A program made the translations under genes and the position numbers. A DNA stretch of 33,946 nucleotides from a virus: the IMG/VR virus record IMGVR_UViG_3300037069_001770, positions 1 to 33,946 of that record; one strand, written 5' to 3'. Under the pieces are notes generated by a model. That model ran no database searches, was not told the origin of the DNA, and saw nothing but the letters and a program-made list of their open reading frames with translations. Positions within the stretch are counted from its first letter, which is position 1; every line of letters begins with the position of its first letter. This document shows, one piece after another, positions 2,668 through 30,893 of the stretch.

Positions 2668-3144
2668 ATGGCTATTCTGGCCGCCGACGGCACTACGGTG
2701 TTGAGCAAGTCGGCGCTACAGGCTTTGATGACGACTGTGCCGTCTACGACGTTCACGGTGCAGACCGACATTTATGAGACGTTCAACTACGCCCCGTACA
2801 AGGCCAATTTCAAGACCTTCGACGGGGAGCGGCGCATTAAGTTCAAGGCCGGGCAGACAATTCAACAGGCGGATATCGACGCCTGTTTCCCGGCCGCGTC
2901 GATCACGGCGATCAGCCCGGCGACGGGCGCCGCCGCTGGTGGCACGGCGGTGACCATTACGGGCGTGAACTTCGATGGCGCTTCCGGCGCCGCGCTGGGT
3001 GGCGTGGCGTTGACCAGCTTCACGGTGGTCAACAACACGACCATCACGGGTGTGTCCGGTGCGCACGCCGCTGGTGCGGTGAACGTGACGGTGACCGATG
3101 ACAGCGGGACGTTGACGCTTACGAATGGGTACACGTATGTGTAG
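2668..3144 (+). CDS. IPT/TIG-domain head decoration or head-fibre protein
   Basis: A 158-residue protein in two parts. Residues 1-76 form a unique N-terminal domain, presumably capsid-binding. Residues about 78-158 form an Ig-like IPT/TIG domain with the ISPATGAAAGGTAVTITG opening, followed by GVNFDGA and a closing NGYTYV strand. Ig-like domains at the C-terminus of small proteins next to capsid genes are common on phage heads, where they face the medium and may bind surfaces weakly. The ATG at 2668 sits eight bases after a GAGAGG ribosome site. An alternative ATG five bases upstream is out of frame. A T-trailing hairpin just after the stop would end the capsid transcript here. Confidence 0.8.
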   Translation: MAILAADGTTVLSKSALQALMTTVPSTTFTVQTDIYETFNYAPYKANFKTFDGERRIKFKAGQTIQQADIDACFPAASITAISPATGAAAGGTAVTITGVNFDGASGAALGGVALTSFTVVNNTTITGVSGAHAAGAVNVTVTDDSGTLTLTNGYTYV

Positions 3145-3540: not shown

Positions 3541-3849
3541 CTACCCGTCCTGCTCCGTCCAGTGGTCGGTGCAGTGGTAGCACGGTGCCATGCGCACCAC
3601 GTGGCAGGCGCACCCCCCGCAGTCGAGGTCAACGGCGCAGCCGTAGGGGCTGGGCATGGGCCGGTAAGAATCGTCGGGCACCTGGGGGCGTGCGTCCATG
3701 GCGGCGGCCGAGCCCGCATCCAACACGGCGGGTGTAGCTGCGAGAGTCGTGGTCGGTGTTATGTCCCACGGGTTGATCGCACACGACGGGGCGGCGATGA
3801 GCCAGTCCAGGTTGACCAGGAGAGCGTCGAGTTCGGGCCGGGCGGTCAC
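3541..3849 (-). CDS. Small protein with Cys-rich C-terminus
   Basis: A 102-residue product whose GTG start overlaps the stop of the DUF2786 gene by four bases (GTGA), indicating translational coupling. The family is not recognised. The N-terminal half is an ordinary helical/hydrophobic mix. The last 40 residues contain clustered Cys and His: a CAVDLDCGGCACH segment, then CYHCTDH. This could bind zinc or form disulfides. Because it is co-translated with the DUF2786 protein, the two may work together. No signal peptide is visible, so the Cys cluster is more likely metal-binding than secreted and disulfide-linked; that is inference. Confidence 0.65.
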   Translation of the reverse strand: MTARPELDALLVNLDWLIAAPSCAINPWDITPTTTLAATPAVLDAGSAAAMDARPQVPDDSYRPMPSPYGCAVDLDCGGCACHVVRMAPCYHCTDHWTEQDG

Positions 3850-4589
3850 CGGATCGCCGCCCGACCGCTGCCGCCGACACGGTTCTGCCCGAGGTCGGCG
3901 CGACCCCCGGCCGTCTTCCCGGCGTAGTAGGCGTCGGGGTGCAGGCGGGCGCGGTTCTTCACTTTGGGCAGGTCCCCGAACAGGTCGTTGTAGGCGAGAT
4001 CGACGGCGGTCTTGCGGTCGACGAGCACGAGCTCGGTGGATTTGCCGCTCGTACTGGCGGCCTGCGCGGTTTGCGCGGCGGCCTGGGCTTCGATGCGTTC
4101 CAAACGGGCGCGTACTTCGTGGGCGAACCCGATGAACCACGAGCGCCGGTAGGACGCGACGCTGACCTCCGGGTCGCCCCACATGTCAGTGGGGGGCCGC
4201 TGGCGGTGGAGCTGCCCGGAGGCTTGCAGTAGCAGCGAGGTGTAGAGCAGTTCGACGCGGGCGAGGTCGGTGTCGTGGCCGACGACGTCGACGTAGTTGA
4301 CGACGGAGGATCGGGCGGTACTCCAGCGGACGGTGCGGCATCGGCAGGCCAGTGCGATACCGGCGAGCAGTTTAGTTTTCTCGCTGGTGTAGGAGCCGGT
4401 CATGTCGATCCGCATGGTCCGGATCGTGTCCTTGATCCGGCCGGTGGCGGCGAGGTGGGCCTGTTCGATGCCGTAGGTGGCCATGAGTTCGTGCGCTTTG
4501 GCGGTGAGCGCTTCGGCTTCGGCCGGGTATTCGGTGGATTCGGCTTTGGCCAGCAGTGCGCGGACCCGGTTGAGCAGTTTGTCGTCCAT
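3846..4589 (-). CDS. DUF2786-family protein
   Basis: Of 247 residues, the first 45 or so match the DUF2786 pattern: LLNRVRALLAKAESTEYP followed by EAEALTAKAHELMATYGI. This short helical motif is common in actinobacterial and phage proteins of unknown function. The middle contains YTSEKTKLLAGIALACRCR and a central helical region with many Arg and aromatic residues. The C-terminus is basic and may contact nucleic acid. The ATG has AAGGGAG nine bases upstream. A TAGGCT -10-like sequence lies just before the leader in a 22-bp element shared with the YdjM-like gene. It is the first gene of a two-gene leftward unit. No biochemical function is established for the domain. Confidence 0.85.
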   Translation of the reverse strand: MDDKLLNRVRALLAKAESTEYPAEAEALTAKAHELMATYGIEQAHLAATGRIKDTIRTMRIDMTGSYTSEKTKLLAGIALACRCRTVRWSTARSSVVNYVDVVGHDTDLARVELLYTSLLLQASGQLHRQRPPTDMWGDPEVSVASYRRSWFIGFAHEVRARLERIEAQAAAQTAQAASTSGKSTELVLVDRKTAVDLAYNDLFGDLPKVKNRARLHPDAYYAGKTAGGRADLGQNRVGGSGRAAIR

Positions 4590-4640: not shown

Positions 4641-5559
<919 letters not shown>

Positions 5560-18454: not shown

Positions 18455-18649
18455 CCGAGTCACGATCTGGAATGTCGCGGGCAGTTTGCGGTGGCGACCC
18501 GGCTTATTCTCACCATTGACTCTGGCCACCCACGCCGGGGGCAACTCGATAGGTACGGTCACGGCCACTTTCGACGGTGCCCCCCGGCGCAAAGGAAACC
18601 GGGGCAGTCGGGCGACCAGCGCACCCAGGCCACCACAAACGTTAATCAT
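18290..18649 (-). CDS. Doubtful leftward frame with antisense overlap
   Basis: 119 codons. The first 70 or so look like a protein, with SKVAVTVPIELPPAWVARVN in a credible composition. The ATG overlaps the stop of the upstream leftward gene by eight bases. The last 50 codons are an Asp/His/Gln-rich string that mirrors the hydrophobic codons of the rightward membrane gene, as expected of a shadow. The N-terminal part may be real with an unusual end, or the whole frame may be spurious. Confidence 0.35.
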   Translation of the reverse strand: MINVCGGLGALVARLPRFPLRRGAPSKVAVTVPIELPPAWVARVNGENKPGRHRKLPATFQIVTRSHPSEWPWSSDQAEHEQDQTDHDQDDSDHVAQGADRGREKATDHPENNADDQHS

Positions 18650-18800
18650 CGTGGCCCCGCTGTCGGGGAATCGTCGCGTAGGCGGGCGGATCAACGGGGG
18701 CGTCGAGGCGCCCGTGGTACCCGTAGAACGTTTCGGCCACGACGAGATCGGCCAATTCTTGGGGCAGGACTGTACGGGGCGTGTCATCACAGGGGTTCAT
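18642..18800 (-). CDS. Small leftward protein of 52 residues
   Basis: A short frame beginning MNPCDDTPRTVLPQELADLV and continuing with ETFYGYHGRLDAPVDPPAYA. Composition is protein-like, and no long rightward gene occupies the same DNA. A TACTCT -10-like hexamer lies 20 bases upstream (plus-strand 18821-18826). The ribosome site is weak. Family unknown. With its neighbour it forms a small leftward cassette within a rightward structural operon. Confidence 0.5.
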   Translation of the reverse strand: MNPCDDTPRTVLPQELADLVVAETFYGYHGRLDAPVDPPAYATIPRQRGHDD

Positions 18801-18885
18801 TCTCGAATGTGACCATGCCAAGAGTAACGAGGCAATCACCTACAGGTGCCCCCTGTCGCCACGCTGCGTGACCGTCTGCGCGGCG

Positions 18886-18908
18886 CCCGGGTGTCGCAAG
18901 CACCCGGG
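18886..18908. other. Inverted repeat in the leader between the leftward pair and the hub gene
   Basis: CCCGGGTG pairs perfectly with CACCCGGG around a 7-base loop. It is followed by TAGGGT (18922-18927), a possible -10 for the rightward hub gene, though no -35 is seen. It could be a terminator for readthrough in either direction or an operator. The rest of this roughly 190-base gap shows nothing else I can support. Confidence 0.4.
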
Positions 18909-18995
18909 GTCGATCTCTGCGTAGGGTACCACCGACCGTGATCTCCCCCGGCCCGTTCGGGCCCTGGAGCAAAGTCGGGAGGTGACGAAGGAACA

Positions 18996-19184
18996 ATGCC
19001 CGCAGGCTCCATTCGCCTCACTGGCCCGCAGGTCGCCCAGTTGGTCGTCGAGGCCAACTTCCCGCCGACCGATCGAGTAACGATGGTTGCTATTGCTAAA
19101 GCTGAGTCCAGTTGGACCGTAGACGCCGTGAACACGGCCAACACCAACGGAACAGTCGACAGGGGATTGTTCCAGAGACCCTAG
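18996..19184 (+). CDS. Baseplate hub lysin, N-terminal fragment (transglycosylase start)
   Basis: 62 residues ending at an amber codon. It begins the lytic transglycosylase fold: RVTMVAIAKAESSW holds the likely catalytic Glu37. NTANTNGTVDRGLFQ follows, where the family continues with I-N-S. Here the frame reads R-P-stop, and the expected I-N-S starts immediately after the TAG in the same frame. The fragment is therefore the first part of a longer hub protein (next entry), separated by a 9-base insertion. The ATG has a GAAGGA ribosome site. On its own it lacks most of the domain and should not fold as an enzyme. Confidence 0.75.
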   Translation: MPAGSIRLTGPQVAQLVVEANFPPTDRVTMVAIAKAESSWTVDAVNTANTNGTVDRGLFQRP

Positions 19185-19193
19185 ATCAACTCG

Positions 19194-20870
19194 GTGCACT
19201 CGCAATACAATGCGCAGCAGCTTCTTTCCGACCCCCGATACAACACCAAGGCCGCGAAAGACATTTACGACTCTCAAGGTCTGAAAGCGTGGTCGACCTA
19301 TAACGCCGGGGCGCATACCCCCTACATGGCCGAATCCGCCCAGGCGTTGGCCAACGCCGGGGGACTCACCGGCCTGCCCCCCGTGCCCGGCTCGGACCCC
19401 GCGAGCCAAACCGTGGTCTACGGTCCGCTCGGCGGGGAGGAGGTGCGCGCAGGCAAAGCGTTCCCCCTGGAGTTCAACACCCCCACCGCCGACGGGTCGA
19501 TCGGGATCATCCGCATCATGGGCACCCAGATCGCCGACAGCATCGGCCTGAAAATCATCGGGTCGCCCACCTTTCGGGCCGCCATGGATCAAGTCCCGCA
19601 CATCACCTTCAGTGTCATCGACCCCGGCTACACCAACGCCAGCAAGAAACTGTTCACCCCCGGCAATCTCGTGACCTGGCGCGACGCGTCCCTGCGCACC
19701 GACACCGTGTCTTACGTGCCCGGCGAGCACGGGCAAGGCCAGGCCGACGTCACCGCCGAAGACGACATCGTCCACGCCCTGAAGCAATTACGCGGACCGC
19801 ACACCGCCAGCAACATCGACGCCGTGACGTGGCTGTTTCAGGAGATCTCCACGGTCGGGTTCGATCCGACGAAGTTCCTGCTCGGCGAGTCGGTGCCCAC
19901 CCAAACCACCATCGCCCGCGACATTTGGGATCCGTCCATGGGGGTGGTCGCCGACACTGAGTTCCCGTCGGCGTGGACGACCATCGTGCGCCTGGCCCGC
20001 GAGCTGGGCAAGTGGGTGTTCGTCTCCGGGCGCCGGATCATTTTCGGTTCCGCGCAGTTCGCGATGGCCTGGGCAGCCGCCACGCCGGTGCGCATCGGCT
20101 GGGACGGCGCCCCGCCGACGGAGTCGTTCATCACCATGCCCACCACGGTGCGCGCCACCATCGCCGACCGGGTGCAAACGTTGCAGGTTAAGGGGCGAGT
20201 GCCGCACGCCCGCGCAGCACTGTTCCGTCCCGGTGTCCCGGTGGACGTCTACGGGATCCTCGGCATCGACAACACCCCGTCGATCAATAAGCCCAACACT
20301 TTCGCGGCCCCGATTCGCATGGTCGTCTCCGATCTCGAACACGTGCTGGCCACTGACACCGACGGCGCCGACGTGACCCTGATCGAGCCGGTCAACCCCA
20401 TTCCGCAACCCCCCGGGCAGACGAACAACCCCAACGCCCCCGGTGGTCCCGGTGGGGCGGTCGGGGTGACCGGTGGCGGTGCTGACGGACAGGTGGAGAC
20501 GTTCGTGCGCAACGCCCTGCAAGAGACCGGCAAGACCTACGTTTACGGCGCCACCCCGGCCGCGTCGGACCCCAACCCGCGCGCTTTCGACTGCTCGTCG
20601 CTGGTGCAGTGGGCGGCGACGCGGGCCGGGATTCTGGGTTGCCCGCGCACGTCAGAGCAGCAAATCGCCTGGTGTGACCAGATCAGTGTGCCGACGGCAA
20701 TCAACACTCGGGGGGCGCTGCTGCACCAGCCTGGGCACATCGCCATCTCGCTCGGCAACGGACGCACGATCGAAGCCAGCCAGGACGGGGTTCCGGTGGG
20801 GCAGCTCAACGCCACCGGTCGCAAATGGGACCTGGGCGGCAAGCTCAAAGGTGCGAAGGGCTACCTGTGA
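19194..20870 (+). CDS. Baseplate hub protein with transglycosylase remainder and C-terminal NlpC/P60 domain
   Basis: 558 residues from the first in-frame GTG; the frame is open from just after the amber at 19182-19184. The opening segment completes the transglycosylase domain (HSQYNAQQLLSDPRYN, ending KAWSTYNAG). The central 300 residues form a hub domain like XkdQ or gp27 (SQTVVYGPLGGEEVRAGKAF, VLTWRD-type LVTWRDASL, long beta blocks). A Pro/Gly linker leads to an NlpC/P60 peptidase, with Cys467 in FDCSSLVQWAA and His515 in PGHIAISLGNG. The intact protein would open the cell wall during injection. The stop overlaps the next gene's GTG. Confidence 0.85.
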   Translation: MHSQYNAQQLLSDPRYNTKAAKDIYDSQGLKAWSTYNAGAHTPYMAESAQALANAGGLTGLPPVPGSDPASQTVVYGPLGGEEVRAGKAFPLEFNTPTADGSIGIIRIMGTQIADSIGLKIIGSPTFRAAMDQVPHITFSVIDPGYTNASKKLFTPGNLVTWRDASLRTDTVSYVPGEHGQGQADVTAEDDIVHALKQLRGPHTASNIDAVTWLFQEISTVGFDPTKFLLGESVPTQTTIARDIWDPSMGVVADTEFPSAWTTIVRLARELGKWVFVSGRRIIFGSAQFAMAWAAATPVRIGWDGAPPTESFITMPTTVRATIADRVQTLQVKGRVPHARAALFRPGVPVDVYGILGIDNTPSINKPNTFAAPIRMVVSDLEHVLATDTDGADVTLIEPVNPIPQPPGQTNNPNAPGGPGGAVGVTGGGADGQVETFVRNALQETGKTYVYGATPAASDPNPRAFDCSSLVQWAATRAGILGCPRTSEQQIAWCDQISVPTAINTRGALLHQPGHIAISLGNGRTIEASQDGVPVGQLNATGRKWDLGGKLKGAKGYL

Positions 20871-21853
20871 GCATGCAACTGGCCGACTTCGGCACCCTGC
20901 ACCGGGCGATCGTCAACTCGGTCACCGCCAACGGGGTCATCGTGGAGATCCCCACGTTGGCGCCCAACGCCCCGTGGGGGCCGATACCGACCTGCGTACC
21001 AAACTTGGCCCCCGGCGAAGCGGTGGTTTGTGCGCAGATCTCCACCTCCCGCGACACTCTGATCATTGTGGGCCGGGTGCCGGGCCGGGCGCCGACGATC
21101 GCCGAGATCGCCACCCTGGCCACCACATTGACGAACATTCAGAACGCGGCGACCGCGCTGACCGGGCGAGTAACCACCACTGAGACCAACATCGCGACCA
21201 ACACCGCCGCGATCACCGCGTTGCAGGGCCGGGCGACCACCGATGAAACGAACATCACCACCAACACCACGGCGATCGCCGCGCACGGCACGCGTTTGAC
21301 CACCGATGAAACGAATATCACCACCAACACCACGGCGATCGCCGCTGCGAACACCGCCGCGACCGCTCTGGCTGCGCGGGTGACCACTTTGGAGGACACC
21401 ACGCGGATCGGGGCGACCCGGTATGTCTTCCAGGCCGCTGACACGGCGGGGATCACCAACCAAACAACTCCGCAGGCGACGAGTCTGACGTTGCCGGTAC
21501 TGGCGGGCGCGACGTACGAGTGGGAGGCGCTGATCATTGTCAACGCCCAGCCCGCCGCCAACTGCAAGATCACTTTCGCGGTGCCGACGGGCACGGCCGT
21601 GCCCCGTGTCGCACCGTGGTTCTCCGGCGATCCGGCAGGCAACGCCGCGATCTGGCACGACGTATTCGACGGCTCCACCTACGTCATGGGCGGCAAGACC
21701 GGTGGCGGCATGATGTCGTCACGCCCATGCGGTGGGATCATCATCGGCACCACCGCTGGCAACTTCGCCATCCAGTACAGCCAGAACGTCTCCGACCCGT
21801 CGAGTGTCGTATTCAACGCCGGGTCGAAACTGAAAATGACCCGGGTCGCTTGA
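20867..21853 (+). CDS. Baseplate spike or short fibre with coiled-coil repeats
   Basis: A 328-residue protein. The N-terminal 80 residues form an OB-like beta domain (HRAIVNSVTANGVIVEIPTL, DTLIIVGRVPG) resembling the gpV/gp5 spike base. Residues about 95-180 are heptad-like repeats of T-DETNITTNTTAIAA type, probably a trimeric coiled coil. The rest is a beta-rich C-terminal domain (YVFQAADTAGITNQTT, then WEALIIVNAQPAANC). Two copies of a 63-base unit lie in the coil. GTG 20867 overlaps the hub stop; ATG 20873 is an alternative. It likely binds the hub and may contact the host surface. Confidence 0.7.
   Translation: MSMQLADFGTLHRAIVNSVTANGVIVEIPTLAPNAPWGPIPTCVPNLAPGEAVVCAQISTSRDTLIIVGRVPGRAPTIAEIATLATTLTNIQNAATALTGRVTTTETNIATNTAAITALQGRATTDETNITTNTTAIAAHGTRLTTDETNITTNTTAIAAANTAATALAARVTTLEDTTRIGATRYVFQAADTAGITNQTTPQATSLTLPVLAGATYEWEALIIVNAQPAANCKITFAVPTGTAVPRVAPWFSGDPAGNAAIWHDVFDGSTYVMGGKTGGGMMSSRPCGGIIIGTTAGNFAIQYSQNVSDPSSVVFNAGSKLKMTRVA
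21241..21346 (+). repeat. Two-copy 63-bp tandem repeat in the spike coiled coil
   Basis: The segment from CGATGAAACGAA through ACGGCGATCGCCGC occurs near 21241-21283 and again at 21304-21346 with almost no change (63-base period). It encodes the DETNITTNTTAIAA unit. A looser copy lies just upstream. Unit number could vary and change coil length. Confidence 0.7.
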
Positions 21854-21938
21854 CGGTGCGTTGTAACGCTGCGGCGCCCAGCGCGATACACCGAGTGTTC
21901 GGCCAGTTCCGGCCAACCCGACCTGAAGGAGAACCACC

Positions 21939-22277
21939 ATGTCCGACGCAACACCATTCGACGCGCCCCTGCCCGCCACGGCCGCGCCCGTCTACATCAC
22001 GCCCGCCACGGCGCCCGCCCCATCGAACGGCCTGGGCGTGTCAGCGCTCGTGCTCGGAATCGTGGGTGTCGTACTAGCTTGGGTGCCGTTCCTGGGTTTC
22101 ATCCTGGGAGTCCTGGCCACCGTATTCGGCGCCGTCGGACTGTCCTACGCCCGCAAAGGTAAGGCCACCAACAAGGGCATGGCGATCGCCGGGCTCGTGC
22201 TGGGCATCATCGCCATCGTGTTCTGGCCGCTGGTCTTAGGCACGATCGTCGCCAGCGTGCCGCCCGTGACCCCCTGA
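21939..22277 (+). CDS. DUF4190-like membrane protein
   Basis: 112 residues: a Pro/Ala-rich cytoplasmic or exposed N-terminus of 35 residues, then two hydrophobic helices. The first carries LVLGIVGVVLAWVPFLGFIL and the second AIAGLVLGIIAIVF. They are linked by GLSYARKGKATNKG, a loop typical of the DUF4190 family, which is very common in actinobacteria. Function is unknown. A GGAGAA ribosome site precedes the ATG, and a strong terminator follows. It has its own end and lies between spike and wedge genes, so it is probably a host-acquired accessory gene. Confidence 0.75.
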   Translation: MSDATPFDAPLPATAAPVYITPATAPAPSNGLGVSALVLGIVGVVLAWVPFLGFILGVLATVFGAVGLSYARKGKATNKGMAIAGLVLGIIAIVFWPLVLGTIVASVPPVTP

Positions 22278-22286
22278 CCCGCTCCG

Positions 22287-22322
22287 CAAACGCCCCACCG
22301 GCACTTCCAGGTGGGGCGTTTG
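22287..22322 (+). terminator. Intrinsic terminator after the DUF4190-like gene
   Basis: A perfect 13-bp stem, CAAACGCCCCACC (22287-22299) and GGTGGGGCGTTTG (22310-22322), has a 10-base loop and a T run at the end of the right arm. It is the clearest terminator in the window. Confidence 0.8.
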
Positions 22323-22368
22323 CGCGCGCCCGCCCGAAGATCACCGCCAGACATGCCAGGATGCCCGC

Positions 22369-22689
22369 GTGGCGGCTGTGTGGGATTTTCCGTTCGGGCT
22401 AGGCCCCGGTGGTGCCGTGGCCGTGGTCGACCAGGACTCCGACAAGGACATCGAGAATCAGATAGCCGCAGCCCTGCTCACCAGACCCGGTGAACGCATC
22501 CAAGCACCCACGTTCGGGATCTCCGACCCGGCGTTCGCCGGATGGGAGGCCCCAGCCCTGGCCCGACACCTGCTCGACTTCGGTCCGCATGTCGACGTGA
22601 CCTCAGTGATCGTGGCCCGGCGTGGCGGGGACGCCCGTGGCGACCGCGAAGAGGTCGCAGTGTCCTGGACTCGGCGGGAGACCGTGTGA
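22369..22689 (+). CDS. gp25-like baseplate wedge protein
   Basis: 106 residues of the GPW/gp25 family (T4 gp25, P2 gpW). The family core can be seen: DQDSDKDIENQIAAALLTRPGER, then a hydrophobic APTFGISDPAF strand and a late VTSVIVARRG strand. It joins tube, sheath and wedge in the baseplate. The next gene encodes baseplate J, the regular partner, and its GTG overlaps this stop. The GTG start lacks a strong ribosome site. Confidence 0.88.
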   Translation: MAAVWDFPFGLGPGGAVAVVDQDSDKDIENQIAAALLTRPGERIQAPTFGISDPAFAGWEAPALARHLLDFGPHVDVTSVIVARRGGDARGDREEVAVSWTRRETV

Positions 22690-23846
22690 GCGCGCCTCTA
22701 ATTAGGCCCCCGGTCGACCTAGGCGCCTACGTCGACCTGCGAGTTTTCGACGTCCCAGACCAAGATCTGATCTCGGCGATGACCGCCTACTACGGGATCG
22801 TCAACCCCGGGTGGGTGCCCCGCGAAGGCAACACCGAAGTGTTGCTGATGGAAGTGATCGCCCTGGCGATCGCCGAGAACGTCGCCACGATCAACCGACT
22901 GCCCGGCGCCGTCGTCGAAGCCGTCCTGCACCTCGCCGGGGTGGATCGGGATTTCGGTGCCCCCGCCGTGGCCACCGCCACGATCAACCTCGCCGACGGT
23001 CTGGGTTACACCATTCCGACCGGCACCCGCTTCTACCTACCCCTGGCCACGGGCACGGTGGTGTTCCTAGCACAGGCCCCCGACACTCAGATCGCCCCCG
23101 GGGCGACCAGCGCCACGATCAATCTCATTTCTCAGATCAACACCGCCGCCGCCAACGGGGTGCTCGCCGGTACCCGGCTTGTGCTCGCCGATCAGTTGTC
23201 CATGGTGCAGACCGTGGTGTTGGCGTCGACGGTGGCCAGTGGTCGTGACCCGGAGACCGACGCCGCGTGGCGTGATCGTGGCGTGGCCCGGCTGCAACGC
23301 CTTTCCGACGCGCTGGTGGTGCCAACCCAGTTCAATGCGTTCATCGACGAGGACGTGCGCGTGGGCCGGGTCATGACCGTGGACCTGTGGGACGGGTCGG
23401 TGGGCACCCCCGGCGCGGTCGGCTCCAATCCGGGGCACATCACCTCCTGCGTGCTCGATCCCACCGGGCTACCGTTGAGCACCCCGACGTTGACCGACCT
23501 CCAAGCCCAGGCGCAAGCCAAATCGGCCGCCATGCTGGCCGTGCACGTCATCAACGCCACCCTGGACACCATCGCGGTGGTGGCCAGTATTCGTACCGCA
23601 GCGGGCTTCGTGGCCGCGACCGTGGCCGCGTCGGTGACCTCGGTGATCCGCAACTACATCAACCCGCTGACGTGGGCGGCGGGGGCACCCCTGCGACACA
23701 ATGAGTTCATCTCGGTCATCGACCAGACCCCCGGTGTCGACTACGTGGTCAGTGTGACCCTCAACGGCGGCACGGGTGACGTCGCGGCGAGCACCCCCCG
23801 GTCACTGCCCCAGGCGGGGACGGTCACTGTCACGGAGGCTCCGTGA
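22686..23846 (+). CDS. Baseplate J protein
   Basis: A 386-residue wedge protein of the P2 gpJ/T4 gp6 type. It contains LLMEVIALAIAENVATINRL near the start, the core VVEAVLHLAGVDRDFGAPA with typical TINLADGLGYTIPTGTRF, then RDPETDAAWRDRGVARLQRL, the strongly conserved J region. The C-terminal INPLTWAAGAPLRHNEFISV follows. The start overlaps the gp25-like gene (GTGA) and the stop overlaps the next gene. Together with gp25-like and tail protein I it builds the baseplate periphery. Confidence 0.92.
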   Translation: MSAPLIRPPVDLGAYVDLRVFDVPDQDLISAMTAYYGIVNPGWVPREGNTEVLLMEVIALAIAENVATINRLPGAVVEAVLHLAGVDRDFGAPAVATATINLADGLGYTIPTGTRFYLPLATGTVVFLAQAPDTQIAPGATSATINLISQINTAAANGVLAGTRLVLADQLSMVQTVVLASTVASGRDPETDAAWRDRGVARLQRLSDALVVPTQFNAFIDEDVRVGRVMTVDLWDGSVGTPGAVGSNPGHITSCVLDPTGLPLSTPTLTDLQAQAQAKSAAMLAVHVINATLDTIAVVASIRTAAGFVAATVAASVTSVIRNYINPLTWAAGAPLRHNEFISVIDQTPGVDYVVSVTLNGGTGDVAASTPRSLPQAGTVTVTEAP

Positions 23847-24145
23847 CGGTCGCTGACTTCATTCCCGAGGATGACTGGATCGACATCGGCAACGATTGCG
23901 CGATCGTGTTCACCACCTGGAATCGGCACATCCACGCGGGACTGATCCACTCCCATCAGCGCCCGGACAATGGACAGCCCTGCGCGGGCGCGATCATGTT
24001 CGACCTGCCCGGGGCGGCGGAAGCGTTCCCCGGGCGCCCATTGTGGACGCTGGTGAGCTTGGACCCGCTGACCTTGTCGCCGTCGCTGCTGTGCAGTTGC
24101 GGGCATCACGGGCACATTCAGGGCGGTAAGTGGGTGCCCTGTTGA
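23843..24145 (+). CDS. DUF6527-like small Cys/His protein
   Basis: 100 residues. The C-terminal LTLSPSLLCSCGHHGHI and GGKW pattern matches DUF6527, a family with a C-x-C-x-x-H-x-H metal-like cluster and no assigned function. The N-terminus carries DDWIDIGNDCAIVF. It sits between baseplate J and tail protein I with overlaps on both sides, so it is co-translated with them. It could be a metal-binding baseplate accessory. The assignment relies on the C-terminal pattern only. Confidence 0.65.
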   Translation: MTVADFIPEDDWIDIGNDCAIVFTTWNRHIHAGLIHSHQRPDNGQPCAGAIMFDLPGAAEAFPGRPLWTLVSLDPLTLSPSLLCSCGHHGHIQGGKWVPC

Positions 24146-25341
24146 CCACCGCCATCCCCACCTTGCCCCCGGCGCCGGTCGTCAACCACTTCGCGGCGCG
24201 GGTCTTCGCCCGACTCCCGCAGGCGTACCAGGTTTTCGACGCCAACTCCGGGTATCCGTTCCTGCTCTACATCGACGCCGTGACCCGCAAGCTGGGTGAC
24301 ATCGACGTCGTCATTGACCGGATCACCGGGCAGCGTCCGGTGGGTCCGGCGTCGCCGGTGCCGTGGTCCCTGCATCCGTCGGTGGTGGCCGACTACAACG
24401 CTAACCGGGTGTTGCGCTGGTCCGAGCTGGCCGACCCGCTCGCTGCGGACCCGGGGTGGTTGCCGTGGCTGGTGCAGCTCGTGGGAGGTCACCTCGATCC
24501 GGCCGCCTCAGTGGCCGAGCAGCGCGACACGATCCGTTACGCCACCTCGGGGTGGCAGGCCGGTACCGCAGCGAGCATCGAGTACGCGGCCCGATCAGCG
24601 TTGACCGGTTCGCAGTACGCGCGGTGCATCCCGCACATGATCGAGGGCGGGGCCGCTGGCGGCCCCTGGGATGTTGCGATCATGACCCGGTCGTCGGAAA
24701 CCCCGGACCCGACACTGGTGCTGGGCGCGATCCTGCGCAAGGGCGTCAAACCGGCCGGGGTGATCTTGCATCACGTGCCGTTCGGGGCGTCGTGGGACAA
24801 GCTGGAATCCGTTCGACCCACCTGGGACCTGTGGGAGTCCGACACGTTCGGTGCCGTGTCGTGGGACCGCCTGGCCGACACGGGCCTGTCCTACGCTGAT
24901 GTGCCCGGCAACCTCGTGCCCAACGCCTCCTACGAGGCGAACGTCACCGGCTGGACGGCGGGGGCGAACACCACGACAGCGTGGCTGACCGGGGGCGTCG
25001 ACGGGCTAGGCCAGTGTCGCCTGACCGCGACCGCCGCTGGACAGATCAAGGTCACCTCGGGGACGTTCCCGGTGACCGCGCTGCTCGACTACCGCTCGGC
25101 GTGCTCGGTGAACCCCTCCAATACGCGCACCGGTCGCCTGATCCGCACGTGGTCGACGGGGGCGACAGTGACCAGCCCCGACTTCACCGTCGCGGCCGGG
25201 GTGTGGACGCGGGTGCCGCAGTTCATTGCGACCGCACCGACGGGGGCGACCACGGCGAGCGTGTCCCTTCAGGTCGATGGGATGGGTGCGGGGGAGACCC
25301 TGCTGGTGGATGCGTGGGATGCTCGCGCGTATCACGGTTGA
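24130..25341 (+). CDS. Tail protein I-like baseplate protein with C-terminal carbohydrate-binding-like domain
   Basis: 403 residues in two parts. The first 230 resemble P2 gpI/tail protein I: FARLPQAYQVFD, a WLPWLVQLVGG segment, and RDTIRYATSGWQAGTAASIE. The last 145 form a jelly-roll-like domain opening with NLVPNASYEANVTGWTAGAN and ending in DAWDARAYHG, as seen in CBM4/9-type binding modules. The protein links wedge and fibre, and the second part may bind wall sugar. Starts at GTG 24130 and TTG 24142 (TTGA overlap) are both possible. Confidence 0.8.
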   Translation: MGALLTTAIPTLPPAPVVNHFAARVFARLPQAYQVFDANSGYPFLLYIDAVTRKLGDIDVVIDRITGQRPVGPASPVPWSLHPSVVADYNANRVLRWSELADPLAADPGWLPWLVQLVGGHLDPAASVAEQRDTIRYATSGWQAGTAASIEYAARSALTGSQYARCIPHMIEGGAAGGPWDVAIMTRSSETPDPTLVLGAILRKGVKPAGVILHHVPFGASWDKLESVRPTWDLWESDTFGAVSWDRLADTGLSYADVPGNLVPNASYEANVTGWTAGANTTTAWLTGGVDGLGQCRLTATAAGQIKVTSGTFPVTALLDYRSACSVNPSNTRTGRLIRTWSTGATVTSPDFTVAAGVWTRVPQFIATAPTGATTASVSLQVDGMGAGETLLVDAWDARAYHG

Positions 25342-25595
25342 TCGTCGGCACCCCCCGATACACTGCCCGCAATGGTCGCGTGGGGGTCAAGGTCGGCTCT
25401 CACGAAGTAAGTTCGGGCGCTGCTTTTCGGTACCGATTAAGGTTCGTTCGGCCGGGTTCCTGTTGGTGAGAGGCTCCTTACCGGCTGAAGCACAACCGCC
25501 GTTGGCGCGGTGGTTGCCATGAACGTTCCTGCCCCCCGCGACCTTCCCAGCGTGTCACTCCCAGCGCGAGCACACCGGCCTGACACGATCACGCG
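25342..25595 (+). other. Non-coding or weakly coding leader of the tail-fibre gene with nested hairpins
   Basis: This 254-base gap is the longest break in the baseplate genes. CGGCCGG and CCGGCTG can pair around a 25-base loop, and CAACCGCC pairs with GGTGGTTG (one G-U), directly before ATG 25519. From that ATG a 26-codon frame ends in a GTGA overlap with the fibre start, but its codon bias is weak. Nothing here resembles a known tRNA or riboswitch class on inspection. It may hold a promoter or RNA control element. Confidence 0.45.
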
Positions 25596-27365
25596 GTGAC
25601 GGTGACCCGGACAACCCGCGTGAGCCTTGAGCAGTGGGGCTCTGGCAGCGACTCCCCGTCGCGCACCGGGTTCAATCAAGACCTCGCCAACATCGAGGCG
25701 AAAGTCGCCATCGACCAGCGCACTCCGGCCGCCGCACTGCCCACCGCCGCCACCGTGCTGCCGGTCGGGGGCACGACACCACTGGTGTCGGCGGAGCTGT
25801 TTCAGCGGACCTTGGACCTCGGTGGCGGCGTCACCGCCTACGGCCTGTACCGCACCGACGCGGGTGGAACCTGGCGCGCGCAGTCGTGGATACCGGAGCG
25901 GCTGCTGGTCCGGCCGCCCGACGCTGTTCCGGCTGTCGGCGCCGAGGCGCTGCGGGTGGAGCACACCGGGGTTGCCAACGGGCCCGGCCTGTCGGTGTCC
26001 TGGGATGGTGGGGCGACGCTGCGCCGCCAGTTGATCCTGGGTGGCACCGCCGACCCGTCTGTTGGTCGACTTTCAGTCGGTGGCTTGGATTCAATGCCAG
26101 CGGCGGTTCGCGCGAGAATCACCCCGACCGGCGCCGAGCGCGGCCTGGAAATCAAGGCCGGGGACGTCAATGTCACCGAGTTGCTGCGCCTGATCGAGGT
26201 CGGCGGGTCCACGGTGCTCACGGTGACCGCCGCTGGCCAGTTGTCCAGCTCGCAGGGCGCGGCGTTCGGTGGCACCCCACCAGCGATATCGGCGGCGCTG
26301 GCGATCGCCCCCAACGCGGTGGGTGCGATCAACACCGGCCTGTTGGGTTACGGGCAGGAAACGGCGCAGTCGCGGGCGATATGGCAGGTCAACCGGTATC
26401 AGCCGGGCGGCTCGGACACTGCCGCGATCTTGTCGGTGCTGCCGAACTACATCACCATCGGCCGCACGGGGGCGTGGTCGGGTGGTGCGATCGACTTGGG
26501 TGCACCCACGATGCGCGTGTTCACTCCGCGCCTGGCGTGGTTCCCTGATTTCGGGTCGGTCGCCGGGGAGGCGGGGTTTGCACCGTTCCCGAGCTTCACC
26601 GGTTACGGCGGGTTCGACAGTGTCAACGGTTCCTATTCCACGATCGGAACCCAGTTTAATAACTTCGGCAACCCCGCCAATGACGCCTCGCATTTCGCGT
26701 CGTATTCTTCGGCCCCAGCGGTGTGGTCGGGTGACATTCTGCGGGGGTATCAGGCGGAGTTGATCTCCGGGGCACCCGATTTGGCTTTGGTGACCCGCAT
26801 CGACCCGCAGGGGCGAATGTCGTCCAACGCGTCGTGGCGGGGCAGTGGCGGGAAGCCCGCCCAGTTGCGGGATGTGCGCCAGGGCGTGGTGCACACGTCG
26901 AAGAAAATATGGGTTGTTCCGGGGGATTACCCGGATGGCCAGTTCATTGGAAGCAACGGATCGTTTACCTACGACTGGCCAACGATGACGGTGCGGTCTT
27001 CGTCGATCACGCAGCTTGAGGTCGAAATGCGGATGGAGGCCCTGTTCTTTAAGCAAAATTCGGGCGCCAACCCTGACCGGCAAGTCTTGCAGATCCGTTG
27101 GTATTACCAGATCGCCGGGGGTTCGTGGACGCTAGCCGACACTGACTACCAGGAGGCCGCATCTCTGGTCGCGGATTCGCAGTGGCCGCAGGCGCCGGGG
27201 GTGCAGAACACGTGGACGGTGGTCATTCCTGTCACCGCCGCTGCCGGTACGACGTTCCGCATGCGTTTCCAGGCACTGCTCTACGCCTACGCCAGTGACG
27301 CCCGGCTGCGTCGGGCGGACCTGAAAGTCAGGGAATCAATTGTCGAGACCTATACGGCGGCCTGA
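25596..27365 (+). CDS. Tail fibre / receptor-binding protein
   Basis: 589 residues. The N-terminal 50 (VTRTTRVSLEQWGSGSDSPS, then FNQDLANIEAKV) resemble the attachment domain of actinophage fibres. The middle is beta-rich and repetitive with many Gly, Thr and Ser (GGTTPLVSAELFQRT, LGAPTMRVFTPRLAWFPDFG). The C-terminal 150 contain NWYYQ-like IRWYYQIAGGSWTLAD and a final helical/beta segment. Its place after tail protein I fits a host-range fibre. The GTG start lacks a good ribosome site but overlaps the small upstream frame (GTGA). Confidence 0.8.
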   Translation: MTVTRTTRVSLEQWGSGSDSPSRTGFNQDLANIEAKVAIDQRTPAAALPTAATVLPVGGTTPLVSAELFQRTLDLGGGVTAYGLYRTDAGGTWRAQSWIPERLLVRPPDAVPAVGAEALRVEHTGVANGPGLSVSWDGGATLRRQLILGGTADPSVGRLSVGGLDSMPAAVRARITPTGAERGLEIKAGDVNVTELLRLIEVGGSTVLTVTAAGQLSSSQGAAFGGTPPAISAALAIAPNAVGAINTGLLGYGQETAQSRAIWQVNRYQPGGSDTAAILSVLPNYITIGRTGAWSGGAIDLGAPTMRVFTPRLAWFPDFGSVAGEAGFAPFPSFTGYGGFDSVNGSYSTIGTQFNNFGNPANDASHFASYSSAPAVWSGDILRGYQAELISGAPDLALVTRIDPQGRMSSNASWRGSGGKPAQLRDVRQGVVHTSKKIWVVPGDYPDGQFIGSNGSFTYDWPTMTVRSSSITQLEVEMRMEALFFKQNSGANPDRQVLQIRWYYQIAGGSWTLADTDYQEAASLVADSQWPQAPGVQNTWTVVIPVTAAAGTTFRMRFQALLYAYASDARLRRADLKVRESIVETYTAA

Positions 27366-27367
27366 TC

Positions 27368-27601
27368 ATGGAATACGAGAATCTGACCGGGAAAGACATC
27401 AACGCACTGCGGGCTGAGCGGATCACCCTCTTGGAGGGTGAGCATTTTCGGCTCGCGTTGCGCCGTGAGGAGGCTGTGGAGGTCGCCGAGTTCGAGGCGT
27501 TGAGCGCGCAGATGGTGGAGCTGGAGCGGCGCATCGGTCTGCACCGGGGGCAGGGCGCCCCCGTGCTCTCAGAATCCGAGTCGGCCGATGTCCAAGCCTG
27601 A
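27368..27601 (+). CDS. Small coiled-coil protein after the tail fibre
   Basis: 77 residues, mostly one amphipathic helix (KDINALRAERITLLEGEHF, then a run with EAVEVAEFEALSAQMVELE). The C-terminus is short and polar. Family unknown; small helical proteins after a fibre often act as fibre assembly chaperones, which is inference here. The stop overlaps the next start. Confidence 0.65.
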   Translation: MEYENLTGKDINALRAERITLLEGEHFRLALRREEAVEVAEFEALSAQMVELERRIGLHRGQGAPVLSESESADVQA

Positions 27602-28025
27602 CGAAACGTCGGCCCCGGCAGCATCGACTCAGCCGACCGTGAGCCGGGAATGGCCTCCTGGTCCGACGGTGTTCATTACCGCCGTCCTGTTCGCCTTCGG
27701 GCTGGCCCTGGTGTTCCAGGCTAGTCGGTGGGCTCGCACCCCCGCTTATGGGAACCTGCTGAACATCCTGCTCGCGCCCACCTGGGGGTATGTCTATCTC
27801 GCAGTCGCGGCATTGATGGTATTAGCGATGGTCTTTTGGACATACGGCCAGTTGAGCGTAGCAGCGCATACCGCAGCGTTCGCTCTACTGCTCGTATGGG
27901 AGGCGGCTTTTTTCATCCGGTACCGCACTGATTCGGCGACCACCGTCGCCAATGTGCTTTCATGGTTGGCCTATCTTTATATCCTTCTGCTGTCCGCTAA
28001 GCTCAGCAAGCGGCACTCTCAGTGA
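27588..28025 (+). CDS. Four-helix membrane protein
   Basis: 145 residues: a polar N-terminus of 25, then four hydrophobic helices (around FITAVLFAFGLALVF, YVYLAVAALMVLAMVFW, TAAFALLLVWEAAFFIRY and VLSWLAYLYILLLSA). The family is not recognised. G/C at third positions drops through its second half compared with neighbouring structural genes. It is co-translated with its neighbours through overlapping ends. A superinfection-exclusion or holin-type role is possible. Confidence 0.75.
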   Translation: MSKPDETSAPAASTQPTVSREWPPGPTVFITAVLFAFGLALVFQASRWARTPAYGNLLNILLAPTWGYVYLAVAALMVLAMVFWTYGQLSVAAHTAAFALLLVWEAAFFIRYRTDSATTVANVLSWLAYLYILLLSAKLSKRHSQ

Positions 28026-28399
28026 ATGCCACCGTACTCACCACCGTGATAGGACTCGTCATCACTGCTGTTGCCACGATTGGGTTCCCCCTTTACCTCA
28101 ATCGCAGCAGGACTACCACTACCGCAGTCGCGCAGGAGTCGGTCGACAGCCGCGAGGTAGCGAGGATGTTCAAGGGGGAAAGAGACCGACTTCAGCTTCG
28201 GCTGGACACGATGCAGGCCGACTATGAACGACGGATGGCGGCGTTGCGCGTGGAGAATGCTCAGGCCATGGCCGTAATGAAGGCGACCTGGGACAGTCAA
28301 CATGAGCGGGACCAGACTCAGATCACCGAACTGCGCGCTGAGCTTCAGGGAGTTTACCGCCAGTTGTACCAGCAGAATCCGCCACCTCGTTCACCGTGA
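28022..28399 (+). CDS. Single-span membrane protein with coiled coil
   Basis: 125 residues. An N-terminal helix (TVIGLVITAVATIGFPLYL) is followed by a polar coiled coil of about 75 residues (REVARMFKGERDRLQLRLDT and onward). The topology suits an anchored periplasm- or cytoplasm-facing coil, like i-spanin-type or membrane tether proteins. The GTG overlaps the upstream stop (GTGA). Family unknown. Confidence 0.7.
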   Translation: MNATVLTTVIGLVITAVATIGFPLYLNRSRTTTTAVAQESVDSREVARMFKGERDRLQLRLDTMQADYERRMAALRVENAQAMAVMKATWDSQHERDQTQITELRAELQGVYRQLYQQNPPPRSP

Positions 28400-29223
28400 G
28401 TGTCGCGCTGCAAGGAATACTGCTTCTGGCGGTATCTGTGGTCAGCGTCGCGATCTACATGAGTGCCCTGGGGCAACTCCTGACGTCGAGGCGACGTCCC
28501 GGACTCATCCGCACCGGACTGTGTCGCCTGTTCGCCGCCCTACTGTATGTGGGTGTCGGTCTAGCTACTGTGGAATACCATTCGGGGGGACCGCTGGTCG
28601 GTGTCGGAGTAATAACGATTGTCCAATTGATGTGGTGGGTTAATTCTGTCAGCGACGTGCGATTGGCGCGGAGATCGGAGGATGACGTAGTGGCAGATTC
28701 GGAGCAGGACTCGTTCGGTGTGACGAACCCGGTAGCGAACTACGCCATGCCCCTGGCCGACGCGGTGGTGTCGGCCGAGATAGATCGACTATCCGAGCAG
28801 GCCAATAAGATGACCCGACGAGTAAGCAAGATAGAAGAGGCCCGCAACGACGATAAAAGGAATGCAAGGTACGTCCGTGCGGCGGTGGCATTCACGTTCA
28901 TCATAGCGATTTGCGGCCTACTATTCAGCTTGGTCATATATAATCGCGCGGATCAGACGGCGAAGCTCGTCGAAGAAAACGCCCGGATTCTTGCCACCGT
29001 GCAAGCCACTCAGGCCCGGCTGGATGCCACCACGGCTCGACTAGATGTCAGTGTTCACGAGTCATGCGTGCTCTATGCACTGCTGCTGTCGCAGTACAAC
29101 GCGAAGTCCAGGGCGTTGTCCCCTCGGGGTCCTGACGGCTACGACAACGACTTCCGCAAGCTCTACGCCAGCTCGCAACACCAGAACTGTGGAATCGGCG
29201 AGCCCCCGGACCTGGTTCGCTGA
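28396..29223 (+). CDS. Membrane protein with three or four helices and a coiled coil
   Basis: 275 residues. Hydrophobic helices occur near the start (LQGILLLAVSVVSVAIYMSA), at about 50-75, and at about 155-180 (AVAFTFIIAICGLLFSLVIY). A coiled coil follows (LVEENARILATVQATQARLD). The last 60 residues contain two Cys. The base composition is lower in G+C than most of the window, including ATAAAAGGAATGC-type stretches. Family unknown. It is the last of three overlapping membrane genes. Confidence 0.75.
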   Translation: MSVALQGILLLAVSVVSVAIYMSALGQLLTSRRRPGLIRTGLCRLFAALLYVGVGLATVEYHSGGPLVGVGVITIVQLMWWVNSVSDVRLARRSEDDVVADSEQDSFGVTNPVANYAMPLADAVVSAEIDRLSEQANKMTRRVSKIEEARNDDKRNARYVRAAVAFTFIIAICGLLFSLVIYNRADQTAKLVEENARILATVQATQARLDATTARLDVSVHESCVLYALLLSQYNAKSRALSPRGPDGYDNDFRKLYASSQHQNCGIGEPPDLVR

Positions 29224-29252
29224 CCCGCTACGGCGCGTCGCGCCGGGTCAGC
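29219..29252 (+). terminator. Hairpin after the membrane-protein cluster
   Basis: GCTGACCCG and CGGGTCAGC form a perfect 9-bp stem that starts at the stop codon. An alternative inner GGCGCG/CGCGCC pairing lies in the loop. It is a plausible attenuator between this cluster and the next genes. Confidence 0.5.
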
Positions 29253-29267
29253 ACCGCCCACTCCTCG

Positions 29268-29792
29268 ATGATGGCGGGCGTGACCGAAGCCCACCTGTTT
29301 GACGACGAGGTTCCCGAACACGGCCGTCACGAGGCGGCCACTTCGGGCTCGTCGATTGTGCGACTGATCCAACGGATTCAGTCCCAACATCAGATGATTG
29401 GAGACCTTGTGGCTACCGAGAGCGAGCAGATTCAGCGCCTGAAGGACGACGTTGGCGGTTACGTCAGCGCCATGCGGACCAAGGTGACGTCCCTTCAGGA
29501 CCAGATCGCCTCCCTAGGTGGACAGGTGTCGACCGCGAAGGCCGACCAGATGACGGCTGACGCCGACGAGTTGAGTCAGACTCTCGACACGCTGGAGCAG
29601 GCGTTCGCGCAGGACAACCCGCCTCCGGCCCCCAGCCCGGCTCCCGCTCCGGCCCCAGCTCCCGCTCCGGCGACACCGGGCACCGACCCCACCGGAGGCG
29701 GCACCACTCCGGCAACCGACCCCACCGGAGCGCCGATCGCTGCCCCCCCGTCGGTGGACCCTACCGGGGGAACCACCCCCCCAGCTCCGTGA
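29268..29792 (+). CDS. Coiled-coil protein with Pro-rich tail
   Basis: 174 residues. Residues about 35-110 form a long helix (VRLIQRIQSQHQMIGDLVAT, then LQDQIASLGGQVSTAKADQM). The rest is a low-complexity Pro/Ala then Thr/Gly/Pro tail (APAPAPAPAPATPGTDPTGG). Family unknown. The start is uncertain: ATG 29268 and 29271 are adjacent. It precedes a tiny peptide gene and the lysin. It may be a scaffold for fibres or a secreted/wall-spanning protein; no signal peptide is visible. Confidence 0.6.
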   Translation: MMAGVTEAHLFDDEVPEHGRHEAATSGSSIVRLIQRIQSQHQMIGDLVATESEQIQRLKDDVGGYVSAMRTKVTSLQDQIASLGGQVSTAKADQMTADADELSQTLDTLEQAFAQDNPPPAPSPAPAPAPAPAPATPGTDPTGGGTTPATDPTGAPIAAPPSVDPTGGTTPPAP

Positions 29793-29878
29793 TCAAGAAG
29801 CTGCTCGAACTGGCGGCAATCAAAAGATTGATCGAGTGGTGGCGCAACCGTCACCAGCCGCGCAACACCGGTAGCTGA
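29789..29878 (+). CDS. 29-residue basic amphipathic peptide
   Basis: A very short frame reading IKKLLELAAIKRLIEWWRNR followed by HQPRNTGS. The GTG start overlaps the previous stop (GTGA). The helix is amphipathic with Lys/Arg on one face and Leu/Ile/Trp on the other, as in membrane-interacting peptides. Small frames of this kind occur just before lysis genes in some actinophages. It is too short for any homology claim. Confidence 0.5.
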   Translation: MIKKLLELAAIKRLIEWWRNRHQPRNTGS

Positions 29879-29885
29879 CCGCCGC

Positions 29886-29914
29886 GCCGGGGAAGTGGCA
29901 GCGACTTCCCCGGC
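29886..29914 (+). terminator. Hairpin before the endolysin gene
   Basis: A perfect 11-bp stem, GCCGGGGAAGT with ACTTCCCCGGC, has a 7-base loop and is followed by TTCGG. It separates the preceding genes from the lysis block. Confidence 0.65.
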
Positions 29915-29936
29915 TTCGGCACCGACAGGAGGACTC

Positions 29937-30893
29937 GTGCATCCCTACCTCGGGGACGTCTTGTGGTCCGACGTGTCGGAGTTCCAAACCGAGGTCACCG
30001 ACGTCTACCCCTACAACACCCTGTGCATCCGGGCCAACGACGGCACCTACCGTGACCACCACTTCATGGACAACTATGCGTGGGCGTTGCGGAGCCTGGC
30101 CAGTGGGCGACTACGCCTACTGATGATCTACATGGTGTACCGGGAGAGCTGGCAGCAAACCCTCGACACCACCAAGTCGATGGTCGGCACTCCGCACCCC
30201 CGCAGTGCCTACATGATCGACGTCGAGTCGTGGTCCGGGCAGATCACCGGCAACCACTCCTCCACCATCAACGCGCTACGCGACGGGCTCACCGCGTGGG
30301 TCGGTGACCCCCGACGGGTTATCGGCTACGGCAACGCCGGTGACCTCAACGCCCTATGGCCGACCAAACCACCCGGCACGCACATCATCGAAGCCGCCTA
30401 CGGGTCCAACCCGGACTACCCGGGCAAGATCGGTCACCAGTTCACCGACGGGCAAACCCGCGACCGGATCAACGTGCCCCCCTTCGGTTACGCCGACGTC
30501 AACTCCGCTGACGGTCTCGACATCGACGCCCTGTGCGCGGCTCTGGGCATCGCATCGGATCACCCCCCACTAGGAGACGGCGACATGCCAGCCAACGAAT
30601 GGAAAACCACCCCGCTGCCCGAGCAGCACTGCGTGTGCTTCCCGATCGGCAAGGTCTCCGGGCTGGTCTCCCAAGGCTGGCTGAGCATCTTCCCCGCGCA
30701 GGACGCGCAACTACACGTCGAGGTCTACGGCGGTGGCGTAAAGCTAACCGAGTTCACCTCGGTCGCCCCCAAGGCGCAGCGCTGGTGGCGGGAACTACCC
30801 GACGGCACCGAGGGCTGCCTAGTGACCATCTCAACCAACACCAACAGCGTCGCGGGCTGGTGTTTGGAACCGAAACCGAGAGTGGGTGCCTGA
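29937..30893 (+). CDS. GH25-like endolysin (lysin A type)
   Basis: 318 residues. The first 205 resemble glycoside hydrolase 25 muramidases: DVSEFQ (12-17) at the first strand, then the acidic pair Asp95/Glu97 in MIDVESW, and RVIGYGNAGDLN and a late DVNSADGLDID strand. GH25 enzymes cleave the MurNAc-GlcNAc bond. After a short linker, the last 95 residues form a separate beta domain with two Cys pairs, probably a wall-binding module. An AGGAGG site lies four bases before the GTG. The adjacent holin candidate overlaps its stop. Confidence 0.82.
   Translation: MHPYLGDVLWSDVSEFQTEVTDVYPYNTLCIRANDGTYRDHHFMDNYAWALRSLASGRLRLLMIYMVYRESWQQTLDTTKSMVGTPHPRSAYMIDVESWSGQITGNHSSTINALRDGLTAWVGDPRRVIGYGNAGDLNALWPTKPPGTHIIEAAYGSNPDYPGKIGHQFTDGQTRDRINVPPFGYADVNSADGLDIDALCAALGIASDHPPLGDGDMPANEWKTTPLPEQHCVCFPIGKVSGLVSQGWLSIFPAQDAQLHVEVYGGGVKLTEFTSVAPKAQRWWRELPDGTEGCLVTISTNTNSVAGWCLEPKPRVGA

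Follow-up and report, generated by a model that had tools for sequence, protein, structure and literature searches.

Fusion of a hub to a cell-wall hydrolase has been described for the diffocin hub-hydrolase CD1368 (8v3w) and for actinophage entry lysozymes, and the gene analysed here shows the same fusion, with the difference that a c-type-lysozyme-like domain is also fused ahead of its hub-like body. The gene is interrupted by an in-frame UAG, and two described cases of ribosomes passing over a stop codon provide a comparison. Bypassing in T4 gene 60 uses matched GGA take-off and landing codons separated by a 50-nt gap, with a UAG right after the take-off codon, together with stem-loops and a KKYK nascent-peptide signal (PMC11194080). 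In the synthetic 'stop hops' constructed in E. coli, matched codons flank the stop, and natural examples of an in-frame stop hop were not known at the time of the 2016 review (PMC5009743). Our locus is like T4 gene 60 in that an in-frame UAG lies within a phage gene and coding resumes past a gap, but unlike it the gap is only nine bases, the candidate codons (CAG and UAG) are unmatched, the UAG lies two codons after the CAG, and no KKYK precedes the stop. It shares with the synthetic stop hops a short in-frame distance over a stop and a rare AGA after the would-be take-off codon, but again differs from them in the unmatched CAG and UAG.

The whole stretch of DNA analysed (the window) is a 33,946-base IMG/VR fragment of an actinophage-like virus. 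It contains a contractile-tail module with genes for sheath (12180), tape measure (15018) and tube (13655), a LysM protein (17552), a baseplate protein (22369) and Baseplate_J (22542). The split gene lies downstream of the sheath and tape measure genes and ahead of the baseplate wedge genes, and both this position and its domain fusion agree with a tail lysozyme or baseplate hub of contractile-tailed phages. An SLT_3/SLT lysozyme-like domain occupies residues 15-107 of the read-through protein (SLT_3 E 2e-13) and an NlpC/P60 domain residues 512-606 (NLPC_P60 E 1e-8), while the C-terminus matched tail PHROGs. The profile of the N-terminal domain matched c-type lysozymes, including the NSNGS-D-GLFQIN stretch, and a structure model of this domain built from relatives (mean pLDDT 82) had c-type lysozymes as its best PDB matches in Foldseek (E 1.7e-5). 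The N-terminus also matched a Rhodococcus phage 'putative entry lysozyme', and the C-terminal NlpC/P60 part matched the diffocin hub-hydrolase 8v3w_H. No family match was found for the hub-like body itself, and its hub role is assigned from gene position together with the match to the hub-hydrolase 8v3w. The identification of the gene as a tail lysozyme with a hub, made in a sequence-only reading of this DNA, thus holds up. The start codon is preceded by a good Shine-Dalgarno sequence, GGAGGTGA. The approximately 540 bases 5' of the gene (18455-18995) contain no plus-strand ORF matched by relatives, and this spacing varies among relatives.

Table 1. Coordinates of the split gene and of the features at its interruption, numbered from the first base of the window.
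Feature	Position	Strand	Remarks
Split gene: tail lysozyme / baseplate-hub-like / NlpC-P60 protein	18996..20870	+	624 codons if amber read; collinear intact homologues
Upstream fragment, 62 aa and TAG: first half of c-type-lysozyme-like domain	18996..19184	+	includes catalytic-type Glu37 and Asp55
9-bp hairpin GGAACAGTC/GATTGTTCC just upstream of the insert	19149..19173	+	not exceptional
Nine-base insertion AGACCCTAG (R-P-stop)	19176..19184	+	absent from every relative spanning the site
In-frame amber codon TAG	19182..19184	+	reading frame from ATG 18996
Downstream frame: remaining lysozyme domain, hub-like body, C-terminal NlpC/P60 domain	19185..20870	+	

The gene reads ...DRGLFQ, AGA CCC TAG, INSVHSQY... 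and remains open until the TGA at 20868-20870, with one frame common to both sides of the split GLFQ-INS motif. Translation and the collinear relatives therefore bear out the initial description of a nine-base insertion whose R-P-stop interrupts this motif and divides the hub gene without a change of frame. Alignment with c-type lysozymes placed the interruption between Q and I in the active-site strand, a pair that we take to be Q57-I58 in hen lysozyme numbering. Aligned gene by gene, 7,380 residues of conserved genes contained six stretches of residues found in the window alone, and only the one at the amber site contained a stop or sat in a highly conserved region (13 of 16 flanking columns invariant, compared with 4-8 of 16 for the other five). 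The insert is not a duplication, is flanked by a repeat of three bases (AGA twice) and is untemplated, the longest copy elsewhere in the window or the relatives being 8 bases. With AGA on each side, it can be placed at four equivalent positions, from 19174-19182 to 19177-19185. By our negative-binomial estimate about 5% of random insertions would be equally ambiguous, so the AGA flanks are weak evidence of slippage. The earlier suggestion that loss of nine bases would restore the motif is matched by relatives that differ by exactly that length, whereas the slippage it drew from the flanks is not strongly indicated.

Nine IMG/VR contigs spanning the site (about 70-90% protein identity) had exactly nine bases fewer and no internal stop, and were otherwise collinear. 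With distant relatives added, none of approximately 20 spanning records (a few near-identical pairs included) had the nine bases or a stop there. Several relatives read GLFQILWSVH instead of GLFQINSVH; an extra residue shortly after GLFQ is thus natural, but nothing resembling R-P-stop was observed. An IMG/VR scan for the exact flanks, allowing 0-30 bases between them, returned no other record, and a search for near-identical contigs spanning the site found none. Purifying selection acted on both sides of the stop until very recently, since the lysozyme domain and the body gave dN/dS values of 0.08 and 0.14, respectively, against the nearest relative (L003). The neighbouring genes are intact and, together with these low ratios, indicate a loss, if any, that is recent and limited to the amber site. 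The lysozyme domain has a lower GC3, which was rejected as a sign of decay because L003 shares it. All homologues whose 5' end is complete carried the domain, so that a hub lacking it is without natural precedent. A dehydrogenase-like sequence unrelated to the lysozyme domain precedes the hub-body homologue at the edge of one contig (L058:1-232), which is probably chimeric. Synonymous divergence of the hub body (19371-20440) was below that of the lysozyme domain in most relative pairs, a possible sign of recombination or of constraint on synonymous sites.

A separately assembled contig (G003) matched the window with 99.6% identity over 11.1 kb, including 8.3 kb without any difference (21390-29653), which shows the assembly to be accurate where it can be checked. 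It reaches no further than 19452, leaving 268 bases to the amber codon, and the comparison covers sequence downstream of the site. The differences between the two contigs cluster in two patches (21241-21389 and 29654-30542), the latter with an 18-base indel at 29654-29671.

We consider it highly probable that the insertion is recent, private and non-programmed and that the phage behind this assembled record carries, in its working form, an intact lysozyme-hub gene. Its source would be either a real indel mutation in some or all of the sampled molecules or a library or assembly artefact. Taken as written, translation would end after 62 residues, and the lysozyme and hub body would not be made efficiently. 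The interruption is like an ordinary loss-of-function indel or nonsense mutation affecting a phage tail gene, or an indel error of metagenome assembly, in being a private, recent and single lesion with relatives and neighbours intact, but unlike an ordinary indel its in-frame length of nine and its exact placement in the catalytic motif look designed. The nine bases are probably without function, and a population with this allele alone would not be expected to multiply normally. Counting against this explanation, it would be odd for a virulent phage to have, as its consensus, a null allele of a gene that is likely essential, given the good assembly quality as checked against G003. If the lesion is ordinary, a tail gene can turn up as a dead copy in a single environmental contig, and one record is insufficient for a claim of recoding.

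A fresh mutation and an assembly error had both been listed as options at the outset; both survive with roughly equal weight. That the sampled population recently acquired a true mutation, with a null or partly tolerated effect, has somewhat less than an even chance. The high consensus identity with G003 elsewhere favors it, as does the strain variation within the population exemplified by the 18-base indel. Tolerance would come from a low level of readthrough, from occasional internal initiation or from complementation where cells are co-infected. However, no convincing internal in-frame start, and none with a well-spaced Shine-Dalgarno sequence, was found between 19194 and 19671, and the retention of the lysozyme domain in all complete homologues also counts against this reading. 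An error of library preparation or assembly, or one aberrant molecule captured at low local coverage, with the real virus intact, is a comparably serious candidate. The insert is private, untemplated, lethal-looking and the only one of its kind in the window, the near-identical contig breaks nearby, and a null allele of a probably essential gene is hard to square with a thriving virulent phage. On the other side stand the 8.3 kb of perfect identity and the length of the insertion, as nine-base insertions are an unusual type of short-read error.

A decaying prophage carrying a pseudogene would account for the broken reading frame, but we regard this as improbable. The intact neighbours and low dN/dS contradict it, no integrase was found among the window genes scanned, and scans of 84,980 bacterial and archaeal genomes with two profiles, both relying on short conserved peptide patterns, turned up no homologue. 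This absence argues for a virulent phage.

Programmed amber readthrough, with R-P-X inserted into a minor full-length product, is very unlikely. The frame is maintained and the codons on either side of the stop are under constraint, but the stop was conserved in none of the relatives, and the three added residues would fall within the active-site motif, between Q60 and I61, which are invariant in the alignment. RNA folding around the stop gave z of -0.4 to -1.3, no structure beyond chance, and Rfam had no match in the window. The hairpin just upstream of the insert was rejected as a signal; it was chosen post hoc, its fold is not unusual, and it was equalled by 133 of 5000 synonymous sequences (2.7%) and 374 of 8594 coding windows (4.4%). 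The amber codon is not reassigned in this phage, as TAG terminates 7 of the 33 window genes. A single internal TAG was observed, and neither the window nor approximately 230 kb of relatives yielded a tRNA gene, so that the check for a phage suppressor tRNA suggested at the outset found none.

A natural in-frame stop hop from CAG (19173-19175) to UAG, with the insertion silent or tuning hub dosage, seems even less credible. The rare AGA codon following the CAG (1.1 per thousand codons here) would stall the ribosome, and peptidyl-tRNA-Gln would leave the CAG, land on the near-matching UAG and restart at AUC, giving exact GLFQ-INS. This is the only in-frame hop yielding GLFQINS, and it carries a mismatch at position 1; neither the matched codons of T4 gene 60-type bypassing nor conservation across relatives was found. 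Were the insertion fixed and the protein still made whole, the locus would provide a rare natural example of a ribosomal hop over a stop codon. Least plausible of all is the proposed phase-variable off switch, gaining and losing nine bases by AGA-repeat slippage, which fits the relatives' motif being that of the window minus exactly nine bases between AGA copies but lacks a mechanism, because slippage cannot create an insert that is not a duplication, frequent slippage would need a repeat longer than three bases, and the relatives showed no alternative lengths or copies.

When the genes of four large relatives were compared with the window and minus-strand shadows removed, the amber codon was the only stop within a conserved coding frame. 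Further stops at 4230 (in-frame amber), 5031 and 5382 (both TGA) were rejected as recoding candidates, being antisense shadows of minus-strand genes at 3846-4589 and 4641-5510. These two genes (DUF2786, and LysM with an Rpf-like transglycosylase) lie among the plus-strand structural genes. The structural region also includes a TIG-domain gene (2668-3144) and a sortase-domain gene (PF04203; 6483-7172), both kept in the large relatives, and a sortase within a phage structural cluster is unusual.
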